In this document: piece after piece, positions 1,741-23,404 of the stretch
How the letters are laid out: every line of letters begins with the position of its first letter
How positions within the stretch are numbered: position 1 is the stretch's first letter
IMG/VR virus record: IMGVR_UViG_3300045825_000406
Span: 1-25,719 of that record
DNA: 25,719 nt
Source of the DNA: a virus
Strand: one strand, 5' to 3'
Translations under genes and position numbers: made by a program
The notes under the pieces: generated by a model
The model's input: only the letters and a program-made list of their open reading frames with translations
Told to the model about the DNA's origin: nothing
Databases searched by the model: none

Positions 1741-1768
1741 AAAAAAAAAGCCCGCACAAAGGCGGGCT
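1741..1768 (-). terminator. intrinsic terminator between lipoprotein and 77-aa gene
   Basis: On the minus strand AGCCCGC (arm 1762-1768 read in complement) pairs with GCGGGCT (1749-1755), with a six-base loop, followed by a run of eight T residues (complement of 1741-1748). This is a typical rho-independent terminator inside the lysis gene cluster. The 1770-1912 interval upstream holds no credible gene on either strand. Confidence 0.85.
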
Positions 1769-2547: not shown

Positions 2548-2978
2548 TGCGGGCCGGCCTTTTGCTGCACAAACACCCGCGCCACCCGCACCGGCGGCTT
2601 GACAAACGCGCCCACGACCTCGGGGGGTATCGGCCGCACCACCGGCGCCACTTCCGGGCTCAGCGGCATCAGCACCAGCGGCTCGAACGCCTTGATGACT
2701 TCGGGCGCCTTCGCGGCCGGTACGGCTGGCGTCTTGCCAACCGTCACGTCAGCCAGCGCCACGCCCACATTCAGCGCCAGCGCGGCCTGCGCAGCGGCGG
2801 CGCGGTCGGCTTGGATTTTCTGCCAGTAACCCCAGGCGGCCGGAATCACGATCAGCGCCGCGCCGACGATCTGCTGCACCAGCTCGGCACTCACCCAGCC
2901 CTGCGCCACCAGCACACCACCGACCGCGATCAGCGTGCTGCGCACGAGGCTTAGCGTGCTTTCACCGGCGGCGGTCAC
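2544..2978 (-). CDS. holin-like membrane protein with long C-terminal tail
   Basis: The 144-residue protein has two hydrophobic segments, about residues 11-31 (VRSTLIAVGGVLVAQGWVSA) and 34-50 (QQIVGAALIVIPAAWGYW), followed by a charged stretch QKIQADRAAAAQ. This pattern, with the conserved-looking GW-S/QQIVGA turn, resembles phage holins of the Pam3-gp28 type, which form holes in the inner membrane to release or activate the endolysin. Residues 65-144 form an unusual proline- and valine-rich tail that short holins lack. The GTG start at 2978 overlaps the stop of the glycoside hydrolase gene (GTGA) and has AAGGTG upstream. Its place before the lipoprotein and muramidase supports a lysis role. 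Confidence 0.75.
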   Translation of the reverse strand: MTAAGESTLSLVRSTLIAVGGVLVAQGWVSAELVQQIVGAALIVIPAAWGYWQKIQADRAAAAQAALALNVGVALADVTVGKTPAVPAAKAPEVIKAFEPLVLMPLSPEVAPVVRPIPPEVVGAFVKPPVRVARVFVQQKAGPQ

Positions 2979-4180
2979 TGTGACACCTTATAGCCATACA
3001 CAGCAATGTCGCCCGTTCCCTCCACCGGCTCCACGCCCAGCTCGACGCTGCTGACGTACTCATTGCCCAGCGCCCACGGATTGCCTTTTACGTCCTTGCG
3101 GGTGGCCACATGGTTGATGAAGGCGGCCAGATCAAGCTCCCCGGCAGGCACGGGGAACACATCGGGCACGAATGCAATCATTTTCCAGCCGGTCCTGCCG
3201 TAACGACCATTGAGCATGCCCTGGCAGAAGTTGTACAAAAAGGCCCCGTCCGCTCCCTTGGTGGCATAGACGTGATAAAGGCGCCCGCCCAGGGTCACAT
3301 CATGGTCATACCAGCTGGAATTTCTTCCGTTGGGCAGATTGTTGGCCCCCCCATAGTTGCCCCAGTTCTGCAGGGGAATCATGATTTCATGGGTGATCGA
3401 AGAATTGGCCTTTGGCGAGTCCTGCGCCGGTGTTGACTGAAGCCAAATGTCATAGCTCAGGTGGCCCATGCCCGTAGGCGCCGTGACGTTCTTCACTGCG
3501 AATTTCGACTTCAGCGATTTGAGCGGCAGCCGCAGGGGAAAGATCGTTCCAGGCGTTACACCAGAATTCGCGGTCATGGTGCCATCGGGCTGCATGACGG
3601 GCTGGCCCCAGCTGTAGCCTGGCCTTTGGCCGCTGATGATGGCAGGGTAGGCCTTGACCTCGTTGGGGCCTGCCGGCCAGCGCCATTTCAGGCGGAACGC
3701 CACTTCCCCGCCAGCGCCCACGGCCGGATCGACGCCTACCGCCTGCTGGTACTGATAGTCGGCGCTGCCCTCGGTCATGGTACCCAGGCCCCAGCGGTTG
3801 TCCTCAACATAGTAGGCGTCCGTGGGATTGCCGACTTGCAGGAACATGTTGTCGTGGCTACCGATTGGGATGGCGGCCGGGTCAAGCGCGCCTGTTGGCG
3901 GCGGTGTGGGCGGTGGCGCTGGTGGATTGATGCCGGTGTAGGGCTCCCAGTAATAAGTGCTGACGGTCGGGTTGTAGCCCGGATTGGGGTACTTTGCCCG
4001 GTACAGCTTGCCGTCGGTGTAGCGCACGATGGCGCCGGCCGTATAGGGCTGCTTTTCGACCCAGGCTGGATAGCTAGGTGCTGGCGGTGGCGGCACCGGC
4101 GGCGCGGCGCCCTGCGCGGCTACAAATTTACCTGCGACGTCAAGCCCGGCCTGGGCTTGCGCTTTTGTGGGATCTGGCAT
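2975..4180 (-). CDS. CBM5/12-GH12-like glycoside hydrolase
   Basis: This 401-residue protein is probably a secreted-polysaccharide hydrolase. Residues 37-82 look like a chitin-binding type 3 (CBM5/12) module: PAWVEKQPYTAGAIVRY, then KLYRAK and a closing YYWEPY. Proline-rich linkers flank it (residues 27-36 and 86-96). Residues 105-400 resemble glycoside hydrolase family 12: DNRWGLG near 127, SYDIWLQ at 242-248, HEIMIPL at 264-270 with Glu265 as the likely nucleophile, VTLGG at 295-299, and a closing SSVELGVEPVEGTG with Glu384 as the likely acid/base. GH12 enzymes cleave beta-1,4-glucan or xyloglucan. There is no signal peptide, so it is either virion-bound or released at lysis. The ATG at 4180 has AAAGGA upstream. 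It overlaps the holin start by four bases. Confidence 0.78.
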   Translation of the reverse strand: MPDPTKAQAQAGLDVAGKFVAAQGAAPPVPPPPAPSYPAWVEKQPYTAGAIVRYTDGKLYRAKYPNPGYNPTVSTYYWEPYTGINPPAPPPTPPPTGALDPAAIPIGSHDNMFLQVGNPTDAYYVEDNRWGLGTMTEGSADYQYQQAVGVDPAVGAGGEVAFRLKWRWPAGPNEVKAYPAIISGQRPGYSWGQPVMQPDGTMTANSGVTPGTIFPLRLPLKSLKSKFAVKNVTAPTGMGHLSYDIWLQSTPAQDSPKANSSITHEIMIPLQNWGNYGGANNLPNGRNSSWYDHDVTLGGRLYHVYATKGADGAFLYNFCQGMLNGRYGRTGWKMIAFVPDVFPVPAGELDLAAFINHVATRKDVKGNPWALGNEYVSSVELGVEPVEGTGDIAVYGYKVSQ

Positions 4181-4196: not shown

Positions 4197-4231
4197 TACG
4201 TAGTTGCGTAGTTGCGTAATTGCGTAGTTAC
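4197..4231. repeat. tandem 8-bp repeats TTGCGTAG/A
   Basis: TTGCGTAG (4204-4211), TTGCGTAA (4212-4219) and TTGCGTAG (4220-4227) are directly adjacent, preceded by a related TACGTAG (4197-4203) and followed by TTAC. The array fills the gap between the coiled-coil gene and the glycoside hydrolase gene and shares its core with the palindrome at 585-606. It could be a protein-binding array (iteron-like), an expression-control site, or a slippage product. Confidence 0.8.
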
Positions 4232-4962
4232 TTGCCGGGCTGAATCACCACCGGTGCCTGCGCTTGCGGCTGCGGCTGTACATAGATGATGGACGGCGTT
4301 TGCGCAGCGCTCTTGTCGCCGCCGCCGCCGCGCATGCTGATAAGCAGCCCGCCCAGCCCGACCGCCGCCGCTACGACGGCAATCAGCACGCCCCAGGCGC
4401 CGAAAGCGCCCTGGCCGCGTCCGTCTATCGTCGTCAGGCGCGTCCGCACGTCGTCGATCTTGTCGTTTAGCGCCGCGTTGATTGATTGCACATTCAGGTT
4501 GATCTGGTCGATCTGCTTTGTAGTGGCCGTCTCTGATTTGGCAATCGCCAGCGAGTTGCTTTCCTGCTGCTTGCCTACGGCCTCCTTCGCCGCCTGCAGG
4601 GCCGCGTCGACGGCGATTTTGCTGTCCTCGGCTGATTTTTCAGTGCGCGTATCGCGCTCGATAAACTGCAGCTGAATGCCCTCAAACTGCACCGCGACGC
4701 GGGCAAAGTGCTCGTCGTGCAGGTCGCGCAGGTTGCCTACCTGTTTGTCGACGCTGGTAGGCACGCGCGTCAGGTTGTCCGAAAAAAGCGTGACGGCCTT
4801 GTCCATGGCGTCCAGGCGCGTGAAGATCAATTCTTTGAGTGACGCGATCTCGCGGTGCCGGCCGTCTATGGCGTCCATCAGGAGCGCACTGACGTTTTCG
4901 CTCGGGTCTTTGGTCAGCGGGCCGGCGCCGAGGGTGCCGGCGATGGATTCAGGGGAGGGCAT
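4228..4962 (-). CDS. coiled-coil protein with C-terminal membrane segment (244 aa)
   Basis: I do not recognise a named family. Residues 35-180 are predicted to be almost entirely helical with heptad-like spacing (for example KEAVGKQQESNSLAIAKSE and KQIDQINLNVQSINAAL), a long coiled coil. Residues 188-210 (GAWGVLIAVVAAAVGLGGLLIS) form one strong membrane helix, followed by a glycine-rich turn and a proline/glutamine-rich tail of about 30 residues. The gene starts 11 bases beyond the tailspike stop and precedes the glycoside hydrolase. It may anchor something to the inner membrane during lysis or act in entry; its single C-terminal membrane segment does not match an Rz-type spanin. Confidence 0.72.
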   Translation of the reverse strand: MPSPESIAGTLGAGPLTKDPSENVSALLMDAIDGRHREIASLKELIFTRLDAMDKAVTLFSDNLTRVPTSVDKQVGNLRDLHDEHFARVAVQFEGIQLQFIERDTRTEKSAEDSKIAVDAALQAAKEAVGKQQESNSLAIAKSETATTKQIDQINLNVQSINAALNDKIDDVRTRLTTIDGRGQGAFGAWGVLIAVVAAAVGLGGLLISMRGGGGDKSAAQTPSIIYVQPQPQAQAPVVIQPGK

Positions 4963-4972
4963 GGCGGCGCCA

Positions 4973-7405
4973 TCAAAGCTGAATCACCCGCTCAATGCCC
5001 AGGCTTGGATAAACACCGTCTATCGTGACCCGGCCCCAATAATCACCAGATAACGCCACCTTGGCCTTGAGGATTATTTTCAGCTTGGTCAATCCGTCCT
5101 CTGCAAACAGGGCATCAGCCGACGAGAAGGAAAATATCCCGTTGGTCGTGGTGCCAGCGATACCCGAGTAGCTACCAAAAGGTGTAGTCACAATCAGCTC
5201 TGGTGTACCGTCATTTGTACTTATCCGAATCGTTGTGTGAAACGTCTTGTCTAGCACAATCGCCAGGCAGTCCGCGCCAATCGCCTTGGTAGTCGCTTCA
5301 ATTCGCCATGGCAACACGCCGGTCGTGATGTTTAGCTGGTTGCCATCGGGTATTGAGTAGCGCACACCATTACGGACAAAGGTATTGCCTTTACTGAACA
5401 GCGGCACATTGTTAGCAGCATGCTTGCCCAGGAAATACTCTACGTCCAGACCAGACGAAGTTTTGAATGGGTCGGACAGATAGCGCCATGTATTATTGAT
5501 AGCGATGCGCCTGGAGCCTGCCATATTCCATGGGACAGGGTTACGCTGGCCCGATGCCGTGGAGGTGATGAAGTAACAGTCATTGAGATCGAACCGGTTA
5601 TCGTGCAACTCCAGCGCCATTGCAATAGGTTGAGTAACAAGAGATAGCATCGCGCCGAAGTCGGTCAGACCGCTGACCGAATTGGTGTACTGTGTAGCCG
5701 TCAAAAACTTGATGTCGTTTCCTGCCAGTTTAACTGCCCCTGAATTGATAGCCATCAGCACATGCGAGTAAATATCACTGTCTGCAGGAAACGCTGTCTT
5801 GTCAAAATTGAAACGGTTGTTTTTCAGCACTACATCGGCTGTTGGCGCGAATATAAAGATCGGGTTAAAACACGTTGCCATAGCGGTATCAGAAACGCCG
5901 TTGTAGTGGCATAAAACGTCGTTGTCCTCGATCACGATGGACTTGATCTTGTTCAGCGTTGCCCCGGCCTGATTCTGGTCGTAAATCGTAATCACGGAGG
6001 CAGTCATCGCGGAATTGGTGAAGCCGTTCGCAATCAGCGCGTCGTAGCATGTCTTCATCCAGGCAGCATCGGCAGGCAACTTACCGTTTGAAAAGGTATT
6101 GCCTTTGATGGTAATAGCACCGTCCACAATACCAATCGGTACATTCCAGTTCGGGTTAGCGATGTGGAATAGGACATTATTTTCAAATGTAGAACCCTTG
6201 ACAACAAACTGACCGCAGCCGTGTGAGTCCACGCCTTTTCTGTAGTTGTGGTGCGCATAAACGCCTTTTACCAGGAACTTTCCAACTGCCACGCTCGCCG
6301 TGATGCCGTAGCCCGTGCCGGGATTACCAAGGATGCCGTTATAAGCAAACTCACCGCTGATTACCTTGACGGTTGCTGCATTGCTAATTACAAAGCCTGA
6401 GGCAACGTTGTAAAACCCTTCGCAATGCATGATGGTCACACGCTCAGTCGCGGTGCCGTAGATACTAAAACCGCGATGGTTGAAGTGCTCGGCGCGGACA
6501 CGGGTAAACCGCACGTCTTTCACGTTGTTGATGTTGAAGCCCCATACCGCGCCGAAGTAAACCGCTGCCGCATTTGCCGGGCCTGTTGTACCGTTGACCA
6601 CCCCTGCTTTTGTGGTGGCAGTAATAGTCATATCAGCGAACTCGATGCCGTTGCCCGTCGTGAAGGTTGCAATAACATTGGGTGAACTTGTTTCATCTAT
6701 ACCCGTAACCCGCGTGGCATCCTCTTTAATAAAATCAAGAATAGTTACCCCGATGCCATCGCCAAAAATGCGTAACTTGTCAAAGTTTGAGAAAGCCAGA
6801 TTGCCGGTCTTGATTCCCCAATGGCCCGCCGGAATCTTGACGGCTGAATGCCCGGCAGCAATGGCCGCGTTGACCAGCGTATTAAAGGCTGCGGTGTTGT
6901 CGGTTGCCGTGATGCGGGCCGCGTCGGCGCCATCGTAAAGTGGCGTTCCCGCATAGTCAGCAACACCGCCCTTGTTGCGTAGCGTCATGACAAGATCGAC
7001 ATCAGCAGCAGTTACCCCCTGTATCAAGCGCCACTTACTCGCATCAAATACCGCGCCGGTCACAAACGGCAGCGCCGACAGCCTGGGTGCGTAGACCTCG
7101 CTCGTGAATTCGACGGTCTGTGTCGCCGTGGTGATGCTCAACCCCGCCGCATAGGCTACCGGCGGCGCGTAGCCGAACCCGCCTATTACCAAGTCGGCTG
7201 ATGCCTGTATCGTCGTGCGCTGCGAAAGTGCGGCCGAGTCGATAGCGTTCAGCCTCGCGGTCGCATCGGCATTCACCCCCGCTATCGTTTTTTTCGTGTT
7301 AGCCAGGCGATCAGTAGCCGTCAGCGCCGGCGAGGTCGCAATCTCTGCAATATGGTCAACGTCAGTTTTCGCGTTGTTCAGGTCCATGATATTGATGGCA
7401 GGCAT
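4973..7405 (-). CDS. tailspike with right-handed beta-helix (pectate lyase-like)
   Basis: The 810-residue product probably forms the receptor-binding spike and may depolymerise a surface polysaccharide. Residues 1-140 look like a virion-attachment and linker region. From about 160, the text DNTAAFNTLVNAAIAAGHSAVKIPAGHW is the usual entry into phage pectate-lyase-superfamily beta-helices (given here as two motifs: DNTAAFNTLV and KIPAG-W). Residues 190-650 carry many short repeats with asparagine ladders, such as ENNVLFHI, IKGNTFSNG and IEDNDVL. The C-terminal 120 residues are beta-rich, probably a trimerisation or binding domain. The coding strand is visibly less GC-rich than the neighbours, consistent with exchange between phages. 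The ATG at 7405 has AGGGA about nine bases upstream. Confidence 0.82.
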   Translation of the reverse strand: MPAINIMDLNNAKTDVDHIAEIATSPALTATDRLANTKKTIAGVNADATARLNAIDSAALSQRTTIQASADLVIGGFGYAPPVAYAAGLSITTATQTVEFTSEVYAPRLSALPFVTGAVFDASKWRLIQGVTAADVDLVMTLRNKGGVADYAGTPLYDGADAARITATDNTAAFNTLVNAAIAAGHSAVKIPAGHWGIKTGNLAFSNFDKLRIFGDGIGVTILDFIKEDATRVTGIDETSSPNVIATFTTGNGIEFADMTITATTKAGVVNGTTGPANAAAVYFGAVWGFNINNVKDVRFTRVRAEHFNHRGFSIYGTATERVTIMHCEGFYNVASGFVISNAATVKVISGEFAYNGILGNPGTGYGITASVAVGKFLVKGVYAHHNYRKGVDSHGCGQFVVKGSTFENNVLFHIANPNWNVPIGIVDGAITIKGNTFSNGKLPADAAWMKTCYDALIANGFTNSAMTASVITIYDQNQAGATLNKIKSIVIEDNDVLCHYNGVSDTAMATCFNPIFIFAPTADVVLKNNRFNFDKTAFPADSDIYSHVLMAINSGAVKLAGNDIKFLTATQYTNSVSGLTDFGAMLSLVTQPIAMALELHDNRFDLNDCYFITSTASGQRNPVPWNMAGSRRIAINNTWRYLSDPFKTSSGLDVEYFLGKHAANNVPLFSKGNTFVRNGVRYSIPDGNQLNITTGVLPWRIEATTKAIGADCLAIVLDKTFHTTIRISTNDGTPELIVTTPFGSYSGIAGTTTNGIFSFSSADALFAEDGLTKLKIILKAKVALSGDYWGRVTIDGVYPSLGIERVIQL

Positions 7406-14528: not shown

Positions 14529-15167
14529 TTATAGTAGAAAGCCGCGCGACCGCATAAAGTCGGCTGGGTGCTGTGCACTTTTTTGATTATTGCAACGCTG
14601 TCTTAATAGTTGTATGTTTTCGTCAATATTCGGACCGCCTAGGGCTAACGGGTTGATATGGTCCATATGGAAGTCATCGCCCAGCGGCTGCGCGCAACAA
14701 GGGCACATACCTTGCTGGAGCTTGAAAAGCTTGGCCACCAGTCCTTTTGACAACTTTCCGCCGTTTTTTGATTTTTTGGCGCGGCGGTTGTGACTGCGAA
14801 CCCGGATCACTTCTGGGTTAGCTTTTGTCCAAGCCAAAGTTGTGGCCTTAACTCTTTCAGCGTTGGCCGTATTCCAATCCCTACTCTTTGCTCTCTCTTC
14901 AAAGAGATTCAAAGACCTGTATTTGGCGCTGTACGCGTTGACCTTACCTCGGTTCGCAGCTATCCATGCAGAGGCTTTCGCTTTAATCTTTTTATAGTTG
15001 GTCGCGTGATATACCCTGCAGTCAGCTTTCGCTTTTTCAAGGTTTGCGTTCCTCCACACGAAGACCGAAATCTTTTGACATGCCTTGCATCGCCCGGTTT
15101 TATAACGGTCAGATGTTCCGCATTTGATGCAAGGGCGCACAGGAATTAGAATAGCTGCAGCTGTCAT
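14529..15167 (-). CDS. HNH homing endonuclease
   Basis: The 212-residue protein starts with a four-cysteine zinc ribbon (Cys13, Cys16, Cys27, Cys30), continues with lysine/alanine-rich repeats of the type W-AN-K-A---Y that probably bind DNA, and ends in an HNH nuclease domain: CPCC (155-158), HMDH (167-170, with the conserved Asp-His), GGPN-DEN and RCNN (191-194). Such free-standing genes are often homing endonucleases that cut phage genomes lacking the insertion. It is placed between the tail tube and chaperone genes, and its GC content is clearly lower than its neighbours. The ATG at 15167 has a weak GAAAG upstream. A role as a packaging HNH protein is less likely because it is far from the terminase. 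Confidence 0.85.
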   Translation of the reverse strand: MTAAAILIPVRPCIKCGTSDRYKTGRCKACQKISVFVWRNANLEKAKADCRVYHATNYKKIKAKASAWIAANRGKVNAYSAKYRSLNLFEERAKSRDWNTANAERVKATTLAWTKANPEVIRVRSHNRRAKKSKNGGKLSKGLVAKLFKLQQGMCPCCAQPLGDDFHMDHINPLALGGPNIDENIQLLRQRCNNQKSAQHPADFMRSRGFLL

Positions 15168-22421: not shown

Positions 22422-22556
22422 ATGAAACGAACTAGCCTATTTCTTCCAGAGCCGATGACAAAACGTCTAACAGCCCTATCAAAAAAAACTGGATTGCCGA
22501 TTGCTGAGCATATCCGGCGCGCTATCGAGGTTTATTTAAAAGAGGATAAAAAATGA
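22422..22556 (+). CDS. ribbon-helix-helix (CopG/Arc-like) small protein (44 aa)
   Basis: The 44-residue product reads MKRTSLFLPEPMTKRLTALS, then a helical section GLPIAEHIRRAIEVYLKE, the strand-helix-turn-helix layout of RHH DNA-binding proteins. It probably represses its own promoter and the downstream endonuclease gene. It overlaps the GIY-YIG gene start by ATGA and is transcribed from a strong promoter with almost no leader. No partner toxin is seen beyond the endonuclease. The cassette is low in GC. Confidence 0.75.
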   Translation: MKRTSLFLPEPMTKRLTALSKKTGLPIAEHIRRAIEVYLKEDKK

Positions 22557-23404
22557 CCTGCGGAATTTATTTAATTACTCATTACGAGACTGGGAAAAAA
22601 TATGTAGGGCAAAGTATAAATATTAAGAATCGGCTATCTATACATGCACGTGGCTATAGCAAAACAATACTCGGTAGAACAATACTAAAATACAACTGGT
22701 CATCTTTTAATACAGAGATATTGCAAATATGTGAACGGGCTTTATTAAATGATGCAGAAAAACAATGGATTGTATTTTATGACTGTGTATCCCCGAAAGG
22801 TTTTAACCTCACATCAGGCGGAAATCAAGCCGAATTCAGCATAGAGACAATCCAAAAATTACGGAAAGCTCAGCAAAACAGATCACCGGAACATATCGCT
22901 AATAAAAATGCGGCTGCATCACGGCCAGAAACAAGGGCAAAAATATCTGAGTCCCTAAAAGGAAGGGTTTTTTCTGATAAAACTAAAAATCTATTAAGAG
23001 AGGCGAAAAAAGGATTTAAATATTCAGATGAAAGTAAAGCCTCTATGAGTGCGTCCGCAAAAATACGAGTAGTAGAGACAGGATTCGTTGAAAGGATGAT
23101 AAAAATTCATAAAGGAACACATCATTCAGAAAACCATCGAGCAAAAATATCTGCGGCCAATAGCAACCCATCCGCCGAGGTAAGAGCTAATATGTCCGCT
23201 GGCCAAATTGGGAGGGTCCATTCACCAGAGGTTTTAGCTGTTATGCGAGAAGTACGGAAATCAGCAGAATGGAAATTAATGTGCGCTAAGGGAGCTAAAG
23301 GTAAAAAACAATCCCCTGAACAGATCGCTAAGAGAATTGCATCCACCAAGGCGACTAAAGCAAAAAATAATTTATCTACCAATTCGAAAACGTTAATTTA
23401 CTAG
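22553..23404 (+). CDS. GIY-YIG homing endonuclease with NUMOD3 repeats
   Basis: The 283-residue product opens with a GIY-YIG nuclease domain: GIYLI (Gly4-Ile5-Tyr6), KYVGQS (Tyr17-Val18-Gly19), candidate catalytic Arg27, His31 and Glu69 in DAEKQWI, and a GFNLTSGG turn. The rest consists of repeated NUMOD3-like DNA-binding modules, for example ETRAKISESLKGRVFS, NHRAKISAANSN and SPEQIAKRIASTKA. These are typical free-standing phage homing endonucleases, which cut cognate genomes lacking the insertion and spread by repair. It is on the plus strand, antisense to the late operon, and strikingly AT-rich relative to its neighbours, indicating recent acquisition. Confidence 0.9.
   Translation: MTCGIYLITHYETGKKYVGQSINIKNRLSIHARGYSKTILGRTILKYNWSSFNTEILQICERALLNDAEKQWIVFYDCVSPKGFNLTSGGNQAEFSIETIQKLRKAQQNRSPEHIANKNAAASRPETRAKISESLKGRVFSDKTKNLLREAKKGFKYSDESKASMSASAKIRVVETGFVERMIKIHKGTHHSENHRAKISAANSNPSAEVRANMSAGQIGRVHSPEVLAVMREVRKSAEWKLMCAKGAKGKKQSPEQIAKRIASTKATKAKNNLSTNSKTLIY

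Follow-up and report, generated by a model that had tools for sequence, protein, structure and literature searches.

A predicted GH12-type beta-glucanase with a CBM5/12-like module encoded next to the holin gene of an environmental phage

GH12 enzymes hydrolyze beta-1,4/1,3-glucans, but not peptidoglycan, through a retaining mechanism that relies on two glutamates, and modules of the CBM5/12 type bind chitin-like GlcNAc polymers. In phages, depolymerases are of interest since they reveal which surface polymers shield bacteria. The Erwinia amylovora phage S6 encodes two cellulases, gp094 (GH48) and gp095 (GH5), and cellulose acts as its first receptor (PMC9544554). Phage cellulases are, therefore, already known, while the GH12 version described here is new among the phage records searched. 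No GH12 relative was found in PHROGs or in 50,697 phage records (INPHARED), for which tblastn with two other phage GH12 variants also returned none, and a fold search of BFVD gave nothing at E ≤ 0.001. The literature searched, which covered few subscription papers, held no description of a phage GH12 enzyme; matches for GH12 combined with phage or viral terms were, where checked, homonyms or matches to part of a longer name (GH127, GH129, GH120 and 'peptide GH12'). With GH12 encoded beside the lysis genes in this virus, and within or next to tail genes in related uncultured phages, it seems that phages have enlisted a further enzyme family, new to them, for cutting through the slime-like sugar coats around bacteria.

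The GH12 gene and its surroundings

The window analyzed is a stretch of 25,719 nucleotides of viral DNA (IMG/VR record IMGVR_UViG_3300045825_000406). The gene spans positions 2975 to 4180 on the minus strand, from an ATG at 4180, preceded by the Shine-Dalgarno sequence AGGA, to a TGA at 2977–2975. An earlier note on this DNA had reported the gene over the same interval; the 401-residue open reading frame is present there, with the strand now corrected to minus. Its stop overlaps by 4 nt the start of a holin gene of the Pam3 gp28 family (PF23987; 2544–2978, minus), and the lysis region continues downstream to an N-acetylmuramidase endolysin (PF11860; 907–1500, minus). On the opposite side lie a gene for a 244-residue coiled-coil protein with a C-terminal transmembrane (TM) segment and a conserved C-tail (4228–4962, minus) and, upstream of it, that of a beta-helix tailspike-like protein (4973–7405, minus). 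The note's placement of the gene, with the tailspike block on one side and the holin on the other, is, therefore, accurate, the coiled-coil/TM gene standing next to the tailspike. The structural genes are co-directional and run from a portal-type gene through tail tip J (phrog_469), the beta-helix tailspike, the coiled-coil/TM protein and the GH12 protein to the holin and the muramidase.

Further features were observed in the window. A terminator-like hairpin followed by a T-run is located at 1749–1768 (minus), between a 152-residue gene and an 86-residue gene/muramidase, so that the endolysin may have a separate transcript; the scan of the window for promoters and terminators was at chance level overall. 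Inspection by eye also revealed a 212-residue HNH-endonuclease-like frame among the structural genes (14529–15167, minus) and a GIY-YIG/NUMOD homing endonuclease-like frame on the strand opposite to them (22553–23404, plus).

GH12 fold and catalytic residues

Searches of the window protein against Pfam, PHROGs, NCBIfam and the INPHARED/plasmid set produced no usable GH12 match, and the Pfam GH12 profile (PF01670) did not match it at E < 0.1. The identification of the domain, which encompasses residues 101 to 401 approximately (2978–3880, minus), rests consequently on the sequence search of the PDB, on the profiles of its relatives and on the structure. With phmmer, the protein matches the GH12 xyloglucanase of Bacillus licheniformis (PDB code 2jem) with an E-value of 1.6e-8. 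A profile built from 18 relatives retrieves the same structure at 4.9e-17, together with 1oa4, 2bw8 and 1h0b at 2e-6 to 2e-5. The orthologue in contig L003, which is 89% identical, scores 29.2 bits against PF01670 and exceeds the cut-off of 27, which is also passed by L008, L015 and L071. The AlphaFold2 model has pLDDT values of mostly 84–97 in 10-residue blocks across the domain, and low values at residues 271–290. A Foldseek search of the PDB with residues ~100–401 of the model revealed 2jem as the best match (E 5.1e-16; 24% identity in the fold alignment), and all the PDB fold matches listed are GH12 with a probability of 1.00. The best matches are thus catalytic GH12 enzymes and not phage fibres, and the proposal of a GH12-like domain is upheld by phmmer, by the profile of the relatives and by Foldseek alike. 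As judged from sequence comparison and the predicted structure, the window protein contains a GH12-type domain with the GH12 fold. Its size, about 300 residues versus 220–235 in the listed GH12 chains, results from insertions between the conserved segments, and its specificity may, therefore, differ from that of classical GH12 enzymes.

The two carboxylates to which attention had been drawn, Glu265 in HEIMI (codon 3386–3388) and Glu384 in GVEPVEG (codon 3029–3031), are both found at those residues. Glu265 occupies the position of the GH12 nucleophile (EIM motif) and Glu384 that of the acid/base (GxE-P). They are invariant in 18 aligned sequences, align in the 18-relative profile with the glutamates of 1oa4 and 1h0b, and are positioned on conserved core strands. 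The residues aligned with Glu265 in 2jem and 2jen are Q and A, presumably in active-site variants. Pairwise dN/dS values range from 0.08 to 0.14, including the comparison with a Polaromonas copy, and on these sequence-based ratios the gene is under purifying selection. From the alignments and the model, the protein is probably an active GH12 endo-beta-glucanase. A catalytically dead protein that solely binds polymers is the least probable of all the explanations considered, as the glutamate pair and the neighbouring motif residues are kept in all complete copies collected and selection is purifying.

The N-terminal region and the lysis cassette

Residues 1–97 comprise a predicted helix (residues 6–23), a Pro-rich linker, a CBM5/12-like module (residues 38–81 approximately) and a second Pro-rich linker; the part from the helix through the module is encoded at 3929–4180 (minus). 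The N-terminus has low confidence in the full-length fold, which improved when it was folded separately with its CBM relatives. The resulting model displays three strands and resembles the chitin-binding domains of ChiC/ChiB, with a best E-value of 0.0076 that makes the fold match by itself only suggestive. The scores for PF02839 (14.4 bits, and 15.4 in L003) fall below the cut-off of 26.2. Over 43 residues, however, the module is 72% identical to that of the Ramlibacter protein L015, which passes PF02839. The chitin-binding-type module of the earlier note is thus CBM5/12-like by this homology and by its fold, with a sub-threshold Pfam score. The fold is also weakly similar (E about 0.02) to baseplate/fibre chains in the tail structures of the Agrobacterium phages Milano and 7-7-1. 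L047, with a protein 55% identical over its whole length, retains the N-terminal helix. The conserved helix and the phage-chain-like fold of the CBM could constitute a virion dock. No virion-attachment domain was recognized in the window protein by Pfam or PHROGs, and no peptidoglycan hydrolase domain was found, the only signals being those of GH12 and CBM5/12.

The organization of the locus recurs. A helix-CBM-GH12 gene directly precedes a holin-type gene, with the 4-nt overlap, in three different phages, represented by the window and its near-identical contigs, by L003 (42.7 kb) and by L047/L048 (45 and 86 kb). In all three, a coiled-coil TM protein is encoded upstream, with the C-tail IIYVQP...APVVIQPxK. 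The window copy (4228–4962) has a single C-terminal TM segment, and across the three phages the tail motif, IIYVQP..APVVIQPxK, is near-invariant. The cassette of L003 is interrupted by a first holin-like gene and endolysin/Rz-like genes, and that of L047 by one small frame, with an endolysin (phrog_7) following. The Variovorax phage VarioGold, the nearest cultured relative as judged by tail tip J, has a TM protein and a holin in succession, with no GH12 gene between them.

The position in the lysis region and the affinity of CBM5/12 modules for chitin-like GlcNAc polymers would suit a lysis helper that attacks the host envelope from inside, at peptidoglycan or a periplasmic glucan, instead of exopolysaccharide. 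This role is very unlikely, given that GH12 substrates are glucans and not peptidoglycan, that a separate muramidase endolysin is present, and that relatives are found in tail genes.

The absence of a signal peptide, as previously noted, agrees with the hydropathy of the window protein, in which no Sec-like signal is found: the maximum over 15 residues is 0.87, compared with 1.9–2.3 in secreted bacterial relatives. Export through the Sec route from a living infected cell or lysogen is consequently not expected for the phage copies. This bears on the idea of an auxiliary metabolic gene that would supply the infected cell or lysogen with glucose from plant or algal beta-glucan. In Comamonadaceae from soil and plants, the cellular relatives resemble glucanases and are secreted, and L003 has an integrase gene, which would be in line with such a function. 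Nevertheless, with phage copies devoid of signal peptides and the gene set in a late lysis region, it is an even less probable explanation than the lysis helper.

GH12 relatives in other phages and in bacteria

The broadest viral scan for GH12 relatives (IMG/VR) yielded 33 contigs. In many siphophage contigs, the GH12 gene is located between the tail-tube gene (phrog_290) and the tail-chaperone (phrog_313)/tape-measure genes, and its product also includes a repeat at the N-terminus and a further domain that looks carbohydrate-binding; two cultured relatives have no GH12 gene at the tail-tube site. The siphophage proteins of L077, L083, L086 and their relatives share a repeat of the TGTF type at the N-terminus and a domain around GGWWKW that could represent a module for carbohydrate binding or virion docking not described before.

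Elsewhere, the domain forms the C-terminus of a 910-residue fibre-like protein, whose gene in L009/L027 has a connector gene on one side and a major head gene on the other, and of a 749-residue protein with a CBM35 (L005); an assignment of the N-terminal domain of the latter as a tail-tubular protein was rejected, as no PHROG supported it. It is accompanied by two CBM5/12-like modules in a gene beside the terminase in L008/L028. A 1989-residue fibre-like protein (L029:63-6032) combines a beta-helix, GH12, a GH18-like stretch recognized by eye and GH8 (PF01270, 52.7 bits), and a 1142-residue beta-helix protein whose gene adjoins the terminase (L037:1761-5189) contains a GH18-like domain that appears to be nested inside GH12. 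Taken with GH12, the GH8 and GH18-like domains point to a beta-1,4-linked polymer in which glucosamine could be present, and the presence of GH8 beside GH12 in the L029 fibre fits a beta-1,4-linked substrate.

These arrangements bear on a virion-borne depolymerase, in which the helix, the CBM or both would dock on the tail or a fibre and the GH12 domain would cut a beta-glucan exopolysaccharide, perhaps also a first receptor, at adsorption, as proposed for S6. Because relatives lie in or next to tail genes, a role on the virion comes close in likelihood to release at lysis. Fusion of the subfamily to long fibre-like proteins (L009, L029 and L037), its position at the tail-tube site, the helix kept in L047, the resemblance of the CBM fold to the Milano and 7-7-1 chains, and the S6 precedent (PMC9544554) all speak for it. 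By contrast, no fibre or baseplate domain was recognized in the window copy, the holin gene follows it immediately, and the fold matches to phage chains are weak. We consider this reading quite possible, while not the one that we favor.

The closest cellular relatives are proteins of Polaromonas and Ramlibacter (L012–L018), which are secreted or lipoproteins. The bacterial loci examined have ordinary chromosomal surroundings, and any match was found in only 2 of 87 genomes of the genus Polaromonas and, across the family, in 7 of 401. In the phylogenetic tree, two Polaromonas copies are the sisters of the window clade, and copies from phages are intermixed with those from bacteria, so that five label changes are needed, at least two of which are forced by supported branches. 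This supports gene exchange, the direction of which is not given by the tree. A search for BcsB, which would have supported cellulose as the substrate, found it in none of five bacteria that carry the subfamily; for this reason, no claim is made for cellulose, and bacterial cellulose is only one candidate substrate.

Proposed role and comparison with known systems

We favor, with a probability of about 0.52, a beta-1,4-glucanase that is synthesized late and, once released at lysis, removes the exopolysaccharide of the host. This reading is based on the 4-nt overlap with the holin, on the recurrence of the cassette near endolysin-like genes in L047/L048 and L003, and on the absence of a signal peptide. 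The enzyme would be made late together with the lysis proteins and build up in the cytoplasm until holin and endolysin open the cell and free it. Outside, the CBM would hold it on a beta-1,4-linked exopolysaccharide of a Comamonadaceae-type host, cellulose-like and possibly containing GlcN/GlcNAc; the GH12 domain would cleave this polymer internally, using the retaining mechanism with two glutamates that is known for GH12. Cutting of the matrix would liberate the progeny and expose neighbouring cells. A host of this type is supported by the Polaromonas and Ramlibacter affinities of the protein and by VarioGold being the closest cultured phage by J. Against release at lysis, GH12 in the relatives is mostly found in or beside tail proteins, which favors use in the virion. 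The helix and CBM fold that could form a virion dock, the greater length of the domain and the lack of BcsB in the cellular carriers tested also weigh against the favored reading. Removal of a beta-glucan exopolysaccharide, whether virion-borne or after lysis, as the earlier note envisaged, fits both the tail-type fusions of the relatives and the conserved lysis-gene neighbourhood.

More tentatively, and with a doubt that outweighs our belief, a distinct long-loop GH12 subfamily may serve uncultured phages, whose hosts are Comamonadaceae-like and other bacteria, as an interchangeable module against exopolysaccharide. Repeated transfers would have carried it among bacteria, lysis cassettes, the surroundings of tail-tube genes and multi-enzyme fibres (GH12 with GH8 and GH18-like domains), and its target would be an undescribed beta-1,4-linked host exopolysaccharide instead of canonical cellulose. 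A GH12 module that phages use in several gene arrangements, and that is absent from the cultured phage records searched, would extend their anti-matrix toolkit by an enzyme family, point to an uncharacterized coat of the beta-1,4-glucan type on environmental Comamonadaceae, and provide a source of small soluble glucanases for biofilm work.

A comparison with GH12 enzymes such as the B. licheniformis xyloglucanase (2jem) and Cel12A of Trichoderma reesei reveals a common fold, glutamate pair and EIM and WG motifs, whereas the window domain is about 70–80 residues longer, is phage-encoded and has no signal peptide. The Ramlibacter and Polaromonas CBM5/12-GH12 proteins (L012–L018) belong to the same subfamily, with 52–83% identity, and several of them contain a CBM5/12; they have signal or lipoprotein peptides and C-terminal CBMs, whereas the phage copies lack a signal and have both the helix and the CBM at the N-terminus. 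With beta-helix tailspikes and exopolysaccharide depolymerases, the window enzyme shares the proposed role of removing surface polysaccharide, but its predicted fold is the GH12 jelly roll and not a beta-helix, and it is only a candidate for virion attachment. The cellulases gp094 and gp095 of S6 likewise hydrolyze beta-1,4-glucan and are encoded by a phage, for which they were proposed to breach a matrix of cellulose (PMC9544554). They belong, however, to other families; they are large and have non-catalytic domains at the N-terminus, in contrast to the enzyme of 401 residues encoded in the lysis region of the window.
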